Assembly (NCBI GenBank): GCA_902525355.1
Contig: CABZGO010000003.1
Span: 20,666-84,665, forward strand
From: an uncultured Pelagibacteraceae bacterium
GTDB lineage: Bacteria; Pseudomonadota; Alphaproteobacteria; Pelagibacterales; Pelagibacteraceae
DNA length: 64,000 nucleotides
Direction of reading: 5' to 3'
Shown: piece after piece, positions 57,605-64,000 of the stretch
How positions within the stretch are numbered: the stretch's first letter is position 1
How the letters are laid out: every line of letters starts with the position of its first letter
Notes under the pieces: model-generated
Seen by the model: the letters and a program-made list of their open reading frames with translations, nothing else
The model's database searches: none
Told to the model about the DNA's origin: nothing
Made by a program: the position numbers and the translations under genes

Positions 57605-58652
57605 GTGACTGAGATAAAAACAAAAAGAGAAAGAGTAAAATTTGCCTCAGATAATGTTACAGGTGCATGTCCAGAAGTCTTAAATGCACTTCTTAAAGCT
57701 AATGAGGATGATAAAACTCCATATGGTAATGATGAGTTATCGAAAAACTTACAAAACAAATTTTCAGAAATATTTGAAAAAGAAGTTATAGTATTTCCAA
57801 CAGCATCAGGCACAGCAGCTAATGCTTTAGCCTTATCAACTATGACTCCTTCTTTTGGAAATATCTATTGCCATAGACTTTCCCATATAAATGTAGATGA
57901 ATGTGGGGCTCCAGAATTTTATACTGGAGGTGCAAAGTTAGTTAATCTGGACGGTAATAATGGAAAAATAATAGCAGAAGAACTAGATAGAAACATCTCT
58001 GGAAAAGGTGTTGTACATCATACTCAACCCTCATCAGTAAGTATTACCCAATTATGTGAGACAGGTGTTGCTTACAATTTAGATGAAATAAAAAAAATAT
58101 CAGAAATTACTCATAAACATGATCTAAATATTCATATGGATGGTGCAAGATTTGCAAATGCGTTAGTTTCATTAAACTGTACTCCAGCAGAAATGACATG
58201 GAAGTCTGGAATTGATGTACTTTCATTTGGAGCAACTAAAAATGGATGCCTAGCAGCAGAAGCCATTATTTTTTTTAAACCAGAGTTAGTTGGAAATTTA
58301 CCTTTTTTAATGAAAAGAGCAGGGCATTTACTATCAAAGATGCGTTTTGTATCAGCTCAATTAGATGCTTATATCTCAAATGAGGTTTGGTTAAAAAAAT
58401 GCGAAGCATGCAAATGCCATGGGAAAAAAATTAAGCCAAGGTTTACTGAAGTACAAAAATATTGAATTAGCTTACCCAACAGATGCAAATGAAGTTTTTG
58501 TAAAAATACCAAAAAATATAATTGATCAATTTAATTCGCATGGTTACAAAATTAACGATAACGAGTGGGAAGATAAAGCCGTTCGATTAGTTGCCGCCTG
58601 GAATACTCATCCAGATGATGTAGAATCGTTTTTAAATATAATTAAATCTTAA
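57605..58652 (+). pseudogene. low-specificity threonine aldolase / beta-eliminating lyase split by a frameshift
   Basis: ORFs 57605..58465 and 58419..58652 rejoin as ..NEVWLKNAKHANAMGKKLSQGLLKYKNIELAYP.. if one A of the A7 run 58393-58399 is removed. Confidence 0.8.
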
Positions 58653-58653
58653 T

Positions 58654-58881
58654 TTAGCTAGGATTTTCTTTAAGGAAATTTATATAATTTACTATTTCAT
58701 CAAATTTTTCATCCTCAATATCTTTATAACTTGCATTAAATTTACTCTTTACGCAAATTGCGACATGTGCATAAGGATTTCTGCCTTTAGGATGATTAGG
58801 ATGATCTGGAAGTTGTCCTTGTAAATAATCGCCAGCTTCTTGAATAATTTTCCAGAGTTTACTTGCGTTTTCTTTATTCAC
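58654..58881 (-). CDS. conserved-looking small hypothetical protein (GTG start)
   Basis: MNKENASKLWKIIQEAGDYLQGQLPDHPNHPKGRNPYAHVAICVKSKFNASYKDIEDEKFDEIVNYINFLKENPS; 5' end duplicated at 62439-62507. Confidence 0.65.
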   Translation of the reverse strand: MNKENASKLWKIIQEAGDYLQGQLPDHPNHPKGRNPYAHVAICVKSKFNASYKDIEDEKFDEIVNYINFLKENPS

Positions 58882-58947
58882 ATTGCCCCATTTCTTGTTT
58901 TATCTCTTCATTATCGAGTTATTATCGAGTTATCCTATAAAATCCTA
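58821..58947. repeat. Left copy of ~127-bp imperfect direct repeat
   Basis: GTAAATAATCGCCAGCTTC...TTATCCTATAAAATCCTA, about 80% identical by eye to 62447-62573. Confidence 0.88.
58910..58931. repeat. Tandem 11-mer ATTATCGAGTT x2
   Basis: ATTATCGAGTTATTATCGAGTT. Confidence 0.95.
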
Positions 58948-58973
58948 TTAACACAGAGCCACATTAATTAAAC

Positions 58974-61900
58974 TTATTTATAACCATAGTTATCAAGAAT
59001 TTTTTTTAATTTTACTTTGTTTAAAGTTTTAAATACATAAAATTTTTTTTTATTTAATGGGATAAAGTCCAAATTAATTTTTTTTAAAATTAATGGATCT
59101 TTCTTTAATATTAATTCTGTTCTAATTCCTTTTGATTTCTTATAAATTATAAAATCTGAATAATAGCTAAGAACATCATGTTTTTCTCTAAACTCTTTTC
59201 TTATAATAGAGTCTATTTTTAACGCTTCTTTAAATTTTTTAATACTCAAAATTTTATAAAAAACATACTCACCATCTGGTATAGAGATTTTTTTATATTT
59301 TTTTAAATAATTTTTGTATCTAGTTATACTCCTTTTGGTAAAATTACATTGATAGGATCCATCATAAAATACTTGGTCAATATGAATATACTTATTGTCT
59401 TTTATTAATTTTCTTGCTTCTGTAATTTTTTGACTTAACTCATCAACAGTTTTTTTTTCATAAAAACCACTAAATGTCACTTTTTTGTTAATTCTATCTA
59501 TGCCAAGTTTATAAGCTATTGGTTTAAAAGGAACTGTATAGATATTTTTGTTTTTGAGATCTTTGTAAATATAAAAATTATTAAAATTTTTCATAAGTAC
59601 TATTTTTTCTTTTTTTAAAAAATCATTAATATTAAATTTAGATTTTTCTATGAAAGGAACAACAAATCCATCATAGTATGATTGCACTTTTATCTTCTTT
59701 GAAACCAAATAATGTTTAAAAATTTCTCTATCAGAAACTAAAAAATTTCTTTGCTTAAAGAACTTTTTTAGAATGTAGTCTAATGTAAAAATATTTTTTA
59801 AATATATTTCATCAACAAAATAATCAAAATTTAATATTTTCTTAATTTTATCTTTGTCTAAATCATACACATCAACATATGTTCCAGCCTCACTAGAATA
59901 GATTTGCCCCTTAGGTTTTACTAAAGACCACAATCGATGAACAGCAGCTATATTAAATTTTTTATATATTTCACCTCTAGTTAAAAATTTAGTAGGAAAA
60001 GCAACTGTTTCTTTATCAAAAGTCCATCTAAAACCTTCTTTGTTTAATTGATTGATGTTTCCAACTGACAAAGTATTCAATTTTTTTCGTCTTCTAATTA
60101 ATCTTAAATTATGAACCCATTCTCCAAGTTCTTTAAATTCACCTTTTGCTAAGAAGGGGACATTACAATTTCCAAATTTATCTTTATATCTTAATAATGT
60201 ACCAAACATATCATCCCAATTATTTCTAAATGTTTCTAATACTTTTATGAAAATATGTTTTTTTAAATTTTTTATATTAATTTCATTTTCTAAAAAAATA
60301 ATTTTTTCACTTAACTTTTTAATTGTTTTAGAAAAGTAACCATGTCCTCTTTTATGATTTCGATTTGCTTCGTTAAGCAATAGATCTAAATTGTCATCTT
60401 GTTCTCTTAATGCATCAAGTACTTCCGATATTGTTTCATAATTTGAGCGCTTAGTTGCTTCTGTAATTTTTTCACTTCTGAATTTTTCTTTAAAAATAGG
60501 TACTAATATGTATCCATATTTTTTATTTTGATTATGTCTATTTCTTACGGCACGCCCTAGAGATTGAACTATATCTATTTTACTTTTCTTTGGACTAACA
60601 TAAGCAATTGCGTCAACTTCTGGCACATCAACACCTTCTATTAAACAACGAGCGTTTGAAATTAATCCTTTCTTGCTTTTTTTAAAATTATTAATAATTT
60701 CTTCCCTTTCTGTGGTTCTCATTTTTGCTTCAATATAGTTTATGTAAAAATTTGGAAGTAAATGAGAAATATCTGTATTAAATTTATTTTTCTTTGCGAA
60801 TGATTGGGTTTGAGGAATTCGTGAATGAAATGTAAAAATTTTTGATAAATTAAATTTTTGGATAGATTTTTTTATAGCAACCTGATGTGCTATTTGGTCA
60901 GTTATGATTTTATTTTTTTTAATGTAAGTAACTGATCTTTTTCTTAATTCCTCTGTTAGTTCTGCACTTTCTGTTCCTGAAATAACTATTCTGTAATCAC
61001 TAATAGCGCCAAGTTTTTGGGCTTCATAAAAATTTAATCTATAACTTACATTTCCGTATATATCAGGATTATTCATATTAAATTTTATTTTTGGATTACC
61101 ATATTCATCTACAATCTTTGAATTATAGCTTTTTTGTGTTGCTGTAAAAAATACACGTTTTTTGATTAATATATTTTTATTTAGCAAGCCCATATTAAAT
61201 TTAGTCTCTTGATGTTTTAAAGAAAAATTAGTTGTTCTATGAGCTTCATCGAATATTCCAATATCAAATGAAATTCCTTTACAAGCTTTAGAAACTGCTT
61301 CTGATGAGTGATATGTAGTAAATATTATTTTAGTTGAATTATCTTTTTTTTGTATAAATTTTCTAATTTCTTTAGGATCTGTATCAATTTTAAAATTTAA
61401 ATCTTTTTTGTTAAGTTTAATTTGATCATACAATTTAGGCTCGGTTTTATCTGAACAGACAGCAAATGATGTTAAATTTTCTAGCGATGTATTAGATAAC
61501 CAGTCTCCTCGAATTTGTTTTAACAATGCAATTGAAGGGACAAAGACAATAATTCTTTTTGGCAATAATCTCTCAATTAACCATAATGCTACATATGTTT
61601 TTCCAGTACCACATGCCATTAAACATGTGGTTCGATCATTATTATTTAGATCATTTATGATACTTTCAATTGCTTTAAGCTGATAATTATCAATTTTTTT
61701 ATCTGACTTTTTTAAAAGATTTTTATTTTTAAAAATATTATTTATATTTTCAATTTCATTTTTAGTTAAATTATGAAAATCTACACCTCTAAAAGCAATA
61801 TTGTTACCTCTTTTAAAATATTCTCCAGCTATAAAATTGCAATTCGTAAAAAGTATTTTTTGATTTGCTCTAGAGCTTTGATCTTTAAATCCTTGGAGCT

Positions 61901-62246
61901 CTTCATAGGATAGCTTTCTTGAACTCCTAAATTTAACTTGATATGGAATTATATTATTTTCTGTATCAATTATTATTCCATCTATTCCTTTATCAGTACG
62001 TGGGATTTCTAATTTTGTAAATAAATCAGATGGAAAATTTCTTTGGGCAGAATAAACATGTTTAACATTAAATAATTTCGTAGTTTTTAAAAATGCCTCA
62101 ATATAAACTTCAAAAATTTCACCTTTTGAATCATCATCAATTGAGAGATTAATTAAAGTATTTTCAAATTGTTCAAAGGTCGCAAACTTAAAATATTTTT
62201 CTTTTATTTTGTGAAGTTTTGGATGTTCAAGTCTATTTAAATTCAT
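58974..62246 (-). CDS. Nuclease-like N-term + SF2 DEAD/DEAH helicase + helicase-associated (HA) domain protein
   Basis: KGIDGIIIDTENNIIPYQVKFR (Mrr-like D..QxK), MACGTGKTYVALW, IFDEAHR, FTATQ, SLGRAVRN; HA-like YKDKFGNCNVPFLAKGEFKELGEWVHNLRLIRRRKKLNTLSVGNINQLNKEGFRW. Confidence 0.85.
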   Translation of the reverse strand: MNLNRLEHPKLHKIKEKYFKFATFEQFENTLINLSIDDDSKGEIFEVYIEAFLKTTKLFNVKHVYSAQRNFPSDLFTKLEIPRTDKGIDGIIIDTENNIIPYQVKFRSSRKLSYEELQGFKDQSSRANQKILFTNCNFIAGEYFKRGNNIAFRGVDFHNLTKNEIENINNIFKNKNLLKKSDKKIDNYQLKAIESIINDLNNNDRTTCLMACGTGKTYVALWLIERLLPKRIIVFVPSIALLKQIRGDWLSNTSLENLTSFAVCSDKTEPKLYDQIKLNKKDLNFKIDTDPKEIRKFIQKKDNSTKIIFTTYHSSEAVSKACKGISFDIGIFDEAHRTTNFSLKHQETKFNMGLLNKNILIKKRVFFTATQKSYNSKIVDEYGNPKIKFNMNNPDIYGNVSYRLNFYEAQKLGAISDYRIVISGTESAELTEELRKRSVTYIKKNKIITDQIAHQVAIKKSIQKFNLSKIFTFHSRIPQTQSFAKKNKFNTDISHLLPNFYINYIEAKMRTTEREEIINNFKKSKKGLISNARCLIEGVDVPEVDAIAYVSPKKSKIDIVQSLGRAVRNRHNQNKKYGYILVPIFKEKFRSEKITEATKRSNYETISEVLDALREQDDNLDLLLNEANRNHKRGHGYFSKTIKKLSEKIIFLENEINIKNLKKHIFIKVLETFRNNWDDMFGTLLRYKDKFGNCNVPFLAKGEFKELGEWVHNLRLIRRRKKLNTLSVGNINQLNKEGFRWTFDKETVAFPTKFLTRGEIYKKFNIAAVHRLWSLVKPKGQIYSSEAGTYVDVYDLDKDKIKKILNFDYFVDEIYLKNIFTLDYILKKFFKQRNFLVSDREIFKHYLVSKKIKVQSYYDGFVVPFIEKSKFNINDFLKKEKIVLMKNFNNFYIYKDLKNKNIYTVPFKPIAYKLGIDRINKKVTFSGFYEKKTVDELSQKITEARKLIKDNKYIHIDQVFYDGSYQCNFTKRSITRYKNYLKKYKKISIPDGEYVFYKILSIKKFKEALKIDSIIRKEFREKHDVLSYYSDFIIYKKSKGIRTELILKKDPLILKKINLDFIPLNKKKFYVFKTLNKVKLKKILDNYGYK

Positions 62247-62308
62247 TAATTAAAAATTATATAATTTTATATTCTTAGTTACCAGTCTGTCACTTGACTT
62301 ATCTATTT

Positions 62309-62331
62309 ATTATCGAGTTATAGATCGAGTT
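62309..62331. promoter_or_regulatory. ATTATCGAGTT + ATAGATCGAGTT repeat upstream of the helicase gene
   Basis: Exact 11-mer shared with 58910-58931, followed by a degenerate copy. Confidence 0.75.
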
Positions 62332-62404
62332 TTTTAATTAAATTAATGAGTCTTTCAGCGATTTATTTCAAACTAACTTTTTAATATTCGCATAAGTACT
62401 GTAG

Positions 62405-62434
62405 TTTAATGTAGCTTAATGTGGATTAATGTGA
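62405..62434. repeat. Three tandem 10-bp repeats (NTTAATGTRR)
   Basis: TTTAATGTAG / CTTAATGTGG / ATTAATGTGA. Confidence 0.75.
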
Positions 62435-62438
62435 ACCT

Positions 62439-62507
62439 CTAATCCCGTAAATAATCGCCAGCTTCCTGTATCATTTTCCACAGTTTACTTGCATTTTCTT
62501 TATCCAC
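62439..62507 (-). pseudogene. Truncated 5' copy of the 58654..58881 gene
   Basis: GTG start, VDKENASKLWKMIQEAGDYLRD* vs MNKENASKLWKIIQEAGDYLQG. Confidence 0.8.
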
Positions 62508-62573
62508 ATTAACCTATTTTATGTTTCATCTCTTTTGATACAAGTTTGATACAAGTTATCCTATAAAATCCTA
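62447..62573. repeat. Right copy of ~127-bp imperfect direct repeat
   Basis: GTAAATAATCGCCAGCTTC...TTATCCTATAAAATCCTA. Confidence 0.88.
62534..62555. repeat. Tandem 11-mer TTTGATACAAG x2
   Basis: TTTGATACAAGTTTGATACAAG, positional equivalent of 58910-58931. Confidence 0.95.
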
Positions 62574-62584
62574 CATTATTTATA

Positions 62585-63370
62585 TTAATCTGGGCAATTC
62601 TGATACTCTCCAGGATATCTTGCACATAACTCTAAATGTGCTTTCTCATTTTCAAGTTCCCTTTCTCGAAATCTTGAAGTTTTCAAATTCTGTTGACTTC
62701 TAAAGAATTGTCTATTTAAATTATTTCTTTGTTGTTTAAGTGAATTTACCTCATCTTGCAGTCTTTGAATGTTATAGATTTTACTTGCTTGATAAGAAGC
62801 TGTCTCAACTTTGAATTTCCAATCGTTTATTTTATCTTGATTTACATCCATTATTTTTTTGGCTTTTCTATTAAATTCTCCCCAAGATATTTCTGAATTA
62901 TCTATACTTGCAAATAAAAACAGTATTTCAGCATATGTTCTATTCATTAGTAATGCTATTTCCATAACTAGTGGAGAAGAATAATTTACGTTGATTACAT
63001 CAATAAAACAATATTCAGCCTTAGGTATATACCAAGACAGTGCATCTCTCTCTAAGCTCGTTATATAATCTTTATCACTGAAGTGTTTATAAGTCATTTT
63101 CTCTATATCAGGAGATTTACGATCTATAACTAAATAGATAGGGTTTTTTTCTATTTCAGTTACACATTTTTCAGCATCAACTAATTTAGTCTCATAATTT
63201 CTCATTTCTTTTTGACTATAACCAACAGATTTAAGTGCTGCTCTTTTTTGTTGTTTTTCTTTCATCATTATAGATGACTCATCTAACACTGCTGTGACTA
63301 ATGTGGGATCACATGCAGTTGAAAATAAAAGTATCAAACTCAGAATGATTCTTACCGAATTTTTTTTCAT
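62585..63370 (-). CDS. hypothetical lipoprotein
   Basis: Lipobox-like LLFSTAC, coiled-coil C-terminus (LQDEVNSLKQQRNNLNRQF). Confidence 0.6.
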   Translation of the reverse strand: MKKNSVRIILSLILLFSTACDPTLVTAVLDESSIMMKEKQQKRAALKSVGYSQKEMRNYETKLVDAEKCVTEIEKNPIYLVIDRKSPDIEKMTYKHFSDKDYITSLERDALSWYIPKAEYCFIDVINVNYSSPLVMEIALLMNRTYAEILFLFASIDNSEISWGEFNRKAKKIMDVNQDKINDWKFKVETASYQASKIYNIQRLQDEVNSLKQQRNNLNRQFFRSQQNLKTSRFRERELENEKAHLELCARYPGEYQNCPD

Positions 63371-63909
63371 TTTATATTTCTTAAAGGCATAATTGTTAAT
63401 TTGTTTTTAATATTGTATAGCCCATAAACTGTCATACCAAATAATTTAACCCTAGTTTTTGAATAGTGCTTTACAAGTACTATGCTAAGACAATCATTAT
63501 TAATATTTGGTGCAAAATCATTGCAAAAATATAAAGGTAATTCAGAGATTACAGTATAATCAAATTCATCTCCTGTATTACATTCATCCAGGTATCTTGT
63601 TAAAGACATCTCCTCACCCCATGAAGAATTATATTTGTCTCCAATAGGTATCTCTTTTCCTAAATAATCACCAATTTTATTAACAAATAATTCAAATTTA
63701 GGATTGCCCCAATGTTTATCTAATTTATTAATATAATTATCGTAGTATGATTCATACCAATCTCCAGATGCTAAGGGGTATAGGTTATTCAAACATTTTT
63801 CTGAGATTTTAATATTGTTATATGTCCACGGTTTGTATTTTGTGTCATCTGCATTAACTGTTACAAACCAAAACAAACCCAGAACCACGATCCCTAAAAG
63901 TTTTTTCAT
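63367..63909 (-). CDS. hypothetical exported protein
   Basis: Signal peptide MKKLLGIVVLGLFWFVTVNA; no recognised domain. Confidence 0.55.
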   Translation of the reverse strand: MKKLLGIVVLGLFWFVTVNADDTKYKPWTYNNIKISEKCLNNLYPLASGDWYESYYDNYINKLDKHWGNPKFELFVNKIGDYLGKEIPIGDKYNSSWGEEMSLTRYLDECNTGDEFDYTVISELPLYFCNDFAPNINNDCLSIVLVKHYSKTRVKLFGMTVYGLYNIKNKLTIMPLRNIK

Positions 63910-64000
63910 TTATTTTTTAATCCAATATGCTTTTCCATTAATGGCCATCTAGTATCAAGTTTTTGTTCTTTTCTTAACTTTTGTGATTTCTTAATATCAG

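Follow-up and report, generated by a model that had tools for sequence, protein, structure and literature searches.

Cis-mobilizable elements (CIMEs) have lost their integration genes, keep both attL and attR, and accrete in tandem, as do the ICESt1-related elements of Streptococcus thermophilus (PMC5704250). Here we describe a 3,626-bp unit, measured from start codon to start codon, that carries a helicase gene and occupies the 5′ end of a 75-aa gene in a 64,000-nucleotide stretch of DNA (the window) from an uncultured Pelagibacteraceae bacterium (GCA_902525355.1, contig CABZGO010000003.1, positions 20,666 to 84,665, forward strand; G, C and L numbers below are our own handles for genomes, contigs and loci). 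The helicase module is very probably a non-autonomous integrative cassette whose integrase is supplied in trans by a helper element, and it has many counterparts in the SAR11 clade.

Like CIMEs, the SAR11 units keep attL and attR, lack integrase and transfer genes, and stack in tandem at one target gene; CIMEs borrow a related element's integrase for mobilisation, and the same would hold for the SAR11 units. Unlike CIMEs, these units are small and far commoner than the helper, bear cassette-specific ends not found in it, and rebuild the 5′ end of their target; nothing recognised in the helper points to conjugation. As to the descent of a CIME from a complete integrative and conjugative or integrative and mobilizable element, the arms match the helper attP, but the cassette-specific blocks are not in known helpers. 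The ssrA islands of Dehalococcoides, as described in the part of the report drawn on here, are similar in forming many tandem islands with RNA-gene direct repeats, many without an integration module and with strain-specific cargo; they differ in using a serine recombinase and the 3′ (downstream) end of ssrA and in being much larger, and that part of the report does not describe matched arm words (PMC3146451). The dusA integrases likewise insert at the 5′ end of a housekeeping gene that encodes a protein; there the target gene is a different one and the islands carry their own integrase (PMC4482086). A search of the open-access literature returned analogues and no account of such a system in SAR11; an earlier description elsewhere is possible.

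The first-pass annotation had placed 127-bp direct repeats around about 3.5 kb holding essentially a helicase gene alone, and had them span the upstream region and first codons of a small gene. This description holds: positions 58821–58947 and 62447–62573 align without gaps at 102/127 identical bases, the edges are abrupt (identity 0/10 just to the right and 2/10 just to the left of the aligned 127 bp), and essentially one open reading frame (ORF) lies between them. A blastn search of the repeat against its own genome returned the second copy (E = 1.7e-29) as the sole other long one, with two short partial matches, one at window positions 62293–62331 and one on contig C12, directly upstream of tRNA-Leu(UAA). 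The former, upstream of the helicase gene, is a third copy of an arm motif; the annotation had listed both long repeats and overlooked this copy, as well as the differing direct-repeat words of the two long copies (ACTCGATAAT twice in the left, ACTTGTATC twice in the right). The window contains two stacked units, the helicase unit and an older one, with the following features.

58654–58881, minus strand: intact target gene, 75 aa, GTG start
58822–58841, minus strand: core block in attR, about 20 bp, common to the host gene and the helper attP; probable crossover region, position putative
58894–58931, minus strand: proximal arm motif, two copies of ACTCGATAAT spaced 11 bp apart and followed by GAGATAAAACAA; the start codon is 24 bp away
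58932–58946, minus strand: box AGGATTTTATAGGAT, present in many cassettes at either site and without a helper counterpart
58974–62246, minus strand: cargo, 1090-aa ResIII/DEAD helicase with an HA domain
62293–62331, minus strand: distal arm motif of the helicase unit, word ACTCGAT; AGATA at +203 from the truncated start codon
62338–62367, minus strand: conserved cassette block AATAAATCGCTGAAAGACTCATTAATTTAA, not in helpers
62399–62433, minus strand: tandem iterons of about 10 bp, CACATTAATC CACATTAAGC TACATTAAAC TACAG, adjoining the core
62439–62507, minus strand: truncated target-gene 5′ end, 21–22 codons then a stop; attL of the helicase unit
62448–62467, minus strand: core block in attL
62522–62557, minus strand: proximal arm motif of the older unit, with the other word, ACTTGTATC, twice
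62558–62572, minus strand: AGGATTTTATAGGAT box of the older unit
62585–63370, minus strand: older-unit cargo, 261-aa protein with a lipoprotein-like N-terminus, no family match
63367–63909, minus strand: older-unit cargo, 180-aa protein that begins MKKLLGIVVLGL

Both arms of the helicase unit bear the word ACTCGAT. Since the window ends where the contig ends (base 84665 of G000:C3 is window position 64000), the older unit is cut off and its distal end lies past the contig. The first ~20 codons and the upstream region of the intact target gene (the attR side) appear to have come with the incoming unit, and the 127-bp repeat is thus a proximal arm plus gene 5′ end from two related but different elements. 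The annotation's alternative of recombination between two related elements is therefore partly borne out: in the right repeat, the older unit's proximal arm is joined to the attL of the helicase unit. An Rfam scan of window 54–64 kb gave no match.

The 75-aa gene is present in 239/397 Pelagibacterales genomes (incomplete single-cell or metagenome assemblies), and more than one match to it occurs in about 46 of the 239 (~19%, our own count from the table). Among 150 relatives, many have extra copies of its first 20–27 codons only, on the same strand and 1–6 kb upstream of the intact gene; one genome (G024) has three truncated 5′ ends plus one further distal block. Forty multi-copy loci were fetched for comparison; in many SAR11 genomes this hot spot holds tandem units with differing cargo. 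Read toward the gene, a well-preserved unit comprises a truncated gene start, a stop, 10-bp tandem iterons (of the CACACTAGCT or CACATTAAGC type), a conserved block of ~60 bp, an arm motif (a word of 8–10 nt twice, 11–12 bp apart, then GAGATAAATCAA), the cargo, and another arm motif that repeats the word and is followed by GAGATAAAACAAG; the start codon comes 24 bp further on. Besides the window, 28 units have both ends, with core and arms. A pattern for the distal block matched 11 times in the 150 genomes, always at the small-gene locus, and its reversed control gave 0 matches.

An attL/attR-like integration that duplicates and restores the gene's 5′ end, as the first-pass annotation suggested, is supported by a near-identical genome pair. 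G031 is longer than the unoccupied G047 by 1,199 bp, inserted at one point in the small gene and bounded by a 60-bp gene-start copy, and the flanks are 98% identical (744/759 and 294/301 bases). The exact crossover base cannot be placed, because single-nucleotide differences in the 60-bp block do not split cleanly between the copies. Dozens of further genomes have extra 5′ ends upstream of an intact gene; unit-free relatives have a single gene start, and the extra copies go with inserted DNA, so that neither of the outcomes named in the annotation as refuting was seen.

A search with the C12 motif revealed the same architecture at a second site. Tandem units at tRNA-Leu(UAA) occur in many genomes and comprise the first ~42 nt of the tRNA, iterons of ~11 bp (AGTCTCACAC), a distal word motif, cargo, a proximal word motif and the intact tRNA. 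A 38-nt pattern for the tRNA-Leu 5′ half was found in 274/397 genomes, more than once in about 113 of them (~41%, again our own count), and its reversed control gave 0. Some tRNA-Leu units carry long tandem runs, up to about 10, of type IV pilin-like genes that share an N-terminus and differ in their tails (L131, about −7100 to −1800 relative to tRNA-Leu; L146, 4978–7075). Tycheposons (Prochlorococcus; Methylophilaceae report PMC10872708) likewise have a tRNA target, a tyrosine recombinase, cargo and streamlined marine hosts; unlike them, the SAR11 units, which span 0.8–6.4 kb, have no recombinase of their own, and one of their targets is the 5′ end of a protein gene.

Searching IMG/VR with the core pattern identified a first likely helper, L139, in which a complete attP lies directly upstream of a 568-aa tyrosine recombinase; the exact distal-block and proximal-box patterns had no matches in IMG/VR. 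The small-gene attachment site was not found in INPHARED phages, and INPHARED matches to the tRNA-Leu site, including Pelagibacter phage HTVC119P, were discarded as the tRNA sequence itself. Helpers measure 8–16 kb, are circular or integrated, and have a 500–580-aa tyrosine recombinase adjoining a complete attP. Their IMG/VR relatives are L148, L149, L150 and L151; terminal overlaps of 29–127 bp in these four and in L139 indicate circles of about 9 or 16 kb. Circular L139, L148 and L149 bear a small-gene attP beside the recombinase and circular L150 a tRNA-Leu attP, and such intact sites on circles further support the attL/attR-like integration. SAR11 single-cell helpers are L152 (the same as L144, AG-447-P19), L153, L154, L155, L156, L157 and L158. 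L154 is integrated at the small gene; L153, L155, L156 and L158 sit in tRNA-Leu: the recombinase gene begins the inserted DNA next to the truncated half, and the intact tRNA follows 7.8–10.2 kb away.

In the recombinase alignment R383, K504, R507, H531 and Y541 are invariant and presumably form the catalytic set. Other helper genes encode a primase (AEP/DUF5906 or P4-family domains), a RusA-like resolvase, small possible helix-turn-helix proteins and, in one helper, a T7-like single-stranded DNA-binding protein. No capsid, portal or terminase was recognised in the helper proteins scanned, nor were relaxase or secretion genes. With their integrase, P4-family primase/helicase, RusA-like resolvase, 8–16 kb circular form and presence in IMG/VR, the helpers resemble phage satellites (PICMI, PMC10803314; P4-like): integrase and replication genes occur together with no recognised capsid or terminase, and an IMG/VR listing is no proof of packaging. 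The cassettes are reduced one level further than such satellites.

Helpers differ from their hosts over the first ~14 codons of the small gene and have the block AGGAAGCTGGCGATTATTTG in common (single substitutions allowed), which is likely the core. Helper insertion swaps the N-terminus of the host protein, giving MNEENRRKLW, MSPEKSQKLW and others in place of MNKENASKLW (attP of L139, L144, L148 and L149; L041; L154), so that the host gene has alleles supplied by mobile elements; the gene start of G088 (MSPEKSQKLW) is that of helper L139. The 16-kb circular helper L151 (8590–9400; compare L147) has an attP with a tRNA-Cys-like 5′ half, which we read as that of tRNA-Cys, and the word GTTGCCTTG in both arms; tRNA-Cys is likely a third site. 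Two tRNA-Cys genes on contig C21 of genome G452 lie close to a partial match to the integrase.

Cassettes and helpers agree closely in geometry. At the small gene, 24 bp separate the proximal motif from the start codon that follows in 4/4 helpers and in 11/12 cassettes, and the distal motif lies at +204 in 4/4 helpers and at +203 in 10/12 cassettes, with one exception at 193, shorter by one 10-bp iteron. At tRNA-Leu, three helpers have the proximal motif at −81 and cassettes have it at −80, relative to the tRNA reference base used in the count. The helper distal motif falls within the first codons of the integrase gene. The word changes from element to element and matches across both ends of one element: within a unit, the words of the two ends are identical at 7.54 positions out of 8 on average, compared with 5.19 when ends are permuted among units within the same site, and 0/100,000 shuffles reach 7.54, in a test that leaves kinship among units unmodelled. 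Some words are common to both classes: helper L144 and cassette L045 have ACTATGCC, and helper L156 shares CCAGCACA with a cassette in L158.

These observations bear on two simpler readings. The arm motifs could be ordinary promoters or operators, and the repeats a duplication of the gene start; the motifs are AT-rich and lie just upstream of start codons or tRNA, and an added promoter role of the arms may exist. As the whole explanation this is scarcely tenable, since each unit has its own word but has it at both ends, the helper distal motif lies inside coding sequence, and an occupied/unoccupied pair exists. Homologous recombination alone, that is, uptake of DNA and exchange via the short gene or tRNA 5′ end with no dedicated recombinase, would suit a highly similar duplicated block of 42–60 bp, frequent recombination in SAR11 and the view that conserved flanks promote cassette exchange (PMC2217521). 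It gives no reason to expect arm motifs at set distances to either side, iterons, word matching at two ends or helpers with the same attP beside a recombinase, and we regard it as very improbable.

A third possibility is that the host's own single Xer-like tyrosine recombinase (~305–325 aa) moves the cassettes in the way that XerCD moves dif modules. A single PF00589 protein was found in most of the cassette genomes searched, and a search for serine recombinases gave no match. However, the PF00589 protein does not track the cassettes: it is also present in cassette-free genomes (G012, G004, G086), and the cassette genome G044, which is incomplete, gave no PF00589 match. Moreover, helpers bear their own, different recombinase of 500–580 aa beside the same attP geometry, and unlike pdif/Xer modules with their 28-bp XerC/XerD site, the SAR11 attP extends over ~250–400 bp with arms. 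We give this explanation hardly any credence.

The most serious competitor to a mobile cassette, itself unlikely, is that the units are immobile remnants, decayed integrase-carrying elements (CIMEs in the strict sense) that accreted at the target. The definition of a CIME, with integration genes lost and both attachment sites kept, fits the anatomy (PMC5704250), some unit ends are degenerate, and the helper integrase was found in only 4/397 genomes, in a search that may miss distant integrases. Against this, end blocks are common to the units and missing in helpers: the distal block matches at 25–30/30 positions in cassettes and at most 15/30 in helpers, and the AGGATTTTATAGGAT box recurs in many cassettes at both sites and in no helper. 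The units thus look like established non-autonomous families of their own, and not like independent decays or fresh deletions. Furthermore, the units carry cargo other than helper sequence, their arms and spacing are preserved almost to the base, and one insertion separates flanks of 98% identity.

For the non-autonomous cassette, we propose that its two ends are the halves of a tyrosine-recombinase attachment site, one comprising the proximal arm and the first ~20 target-gene codons and the other the core, the 10-bp iterons and the distal arm, and that an integrase-carrying helper would provide the enzyme in trans. After excision, the circularised cassette would recombine at the ~20-bp core in codons ~14–21 of the 75-aa gene. 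The old 5′ end would stay upstream as a truncated copy and the gene would gain a new 5′ end and upstream region; repeated insertion would stack units in tandem, the newest adjoining the gene, and cassettes may also pass between cells. The direct-repeat word in both arms would act as an element-specific address, presumably an arm-type site read by the matching integrase or an accessory factor.

Several points weigh against this proposal. No excision, circular cassette or reaction in trans was observed. The annotation was correct that the window has no integrase, and the same search of 397 genomes found no member of the helper integrase family in the window's genome, so that cassette movement in this cell can be no more than occasional or a thing of the past. 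Distal ends are damaged or missing in some units (L046; the −9100 copy in L125), and part of each array is therefore dead. Given the cassette-specific blocks that helpers lack, the true helper could be a related element as yet unseen.

The cargo comprises 55 ORFs in 27 units, 51/55 of them oriented toward the target. Restriction and methylation families are represented (Eco57I, EcoRI methylase, N6-methylase, HsdS-like, Mrr, GmrSD), together with helicases, a TypA/BipA-like GTPase, transport proteins and exported proteins; no recombinase or relaxase was found for the 54 cargo ORFs scanned, among the top 25 of 39 Pfam families, and no terminase, portal or capsid, as a prophage would carry, was recognised in the window units. 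The window helicase is like the nuclease-helicase half of the restriction enzymes LlaBIII/LlaGI, resembling LlaBIII residues 13–657 (E = 4.6e-51) without the methyltransferase part, and a role in defence is plausible; no match at E ≤ 1e-100 was found in the other 199 genomes searched. One cassette (L042, −3399 to −58) bears a TypA/BipA-like GTPase and a DEAD-box RNA helicase, which are normally housekeeping genes. The DNA ATGAAAAAACTTTTAGGGATCGTGGTTCTGGG, the start of the MKKLLGIVVLGL signal peptide, recurs at window 63880–63909 and, upstream of the proximal motif, in L043, L041, L046, L049 and L059; it thus stands at cargo-gene starts right after the distal arm and also right before the proximal arm, as though a reusable export signal were part of the cassette backbone.

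As single-gene, integrase-less units stacked at one site and mostly in one orientation, the cassettes recall those of integrons; unlike integron cassettes, each unit restores a host gene, and the helper recombinase is a phage-type integrase with attP arms. The unit ends do not fold consistently into attC-like single-strand hairpins (z −0.2, −0.3, −1.4 and −3.9), and three distal ends gave no consistent stable fold. Integron attC sites were also missing from SAR11 hypervariable regions in a survey of 2007 (PMC2217521). No IntI integrase was recognised in the window's genome, whose only PF00589 protein is a 305-aa Xer-like one on another contig, away from the array, in a comparison that did not score the IntI-specific patch.

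The 75-aa target protein had no match in Pfam, PHROGs or NCBIfam. It is predicted to form three helices (pLDDT 85), and the model weakly resembles a phage repressor-like domain (best viral Foldseek match, probability 0.99, TM 0.60, E 0.17), with nothing significant in the PDB. Adjoining the target, a gene for a beta-eliminating lyase (threonine aldolase-like) is split into two overlapping ORFs (57605–58465 and 58419–58652); in relatives it is a single 348-aa ORF, and the split reflects a frameshift or an assembly error.

Although SAR11 genomes are small and few mobile elements are recognised in them, their flexible gene pool is large. We tentatively suggest, at somewhat less than even confidence, that SAR11 has a distributed cassette system: a pool of small integrase-less cassettes that stack at a handful of set positions (a core gene's 5′ end, the tRNA-Leu 5′ half and possibly tRNA-Cys), with an interchangeable arm word of ~8 nt setting which visiting helper integrase moves which cassette. 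The elements also provide a natural set of matched integrase/arm-word pairs, useful for studies of arm choice by integrases. With cargo that includes restriction-modification and exported proteins, this cassette route, which is concrete, common and testable, may help explain how stripped-down SAR11 genomes gain genes.

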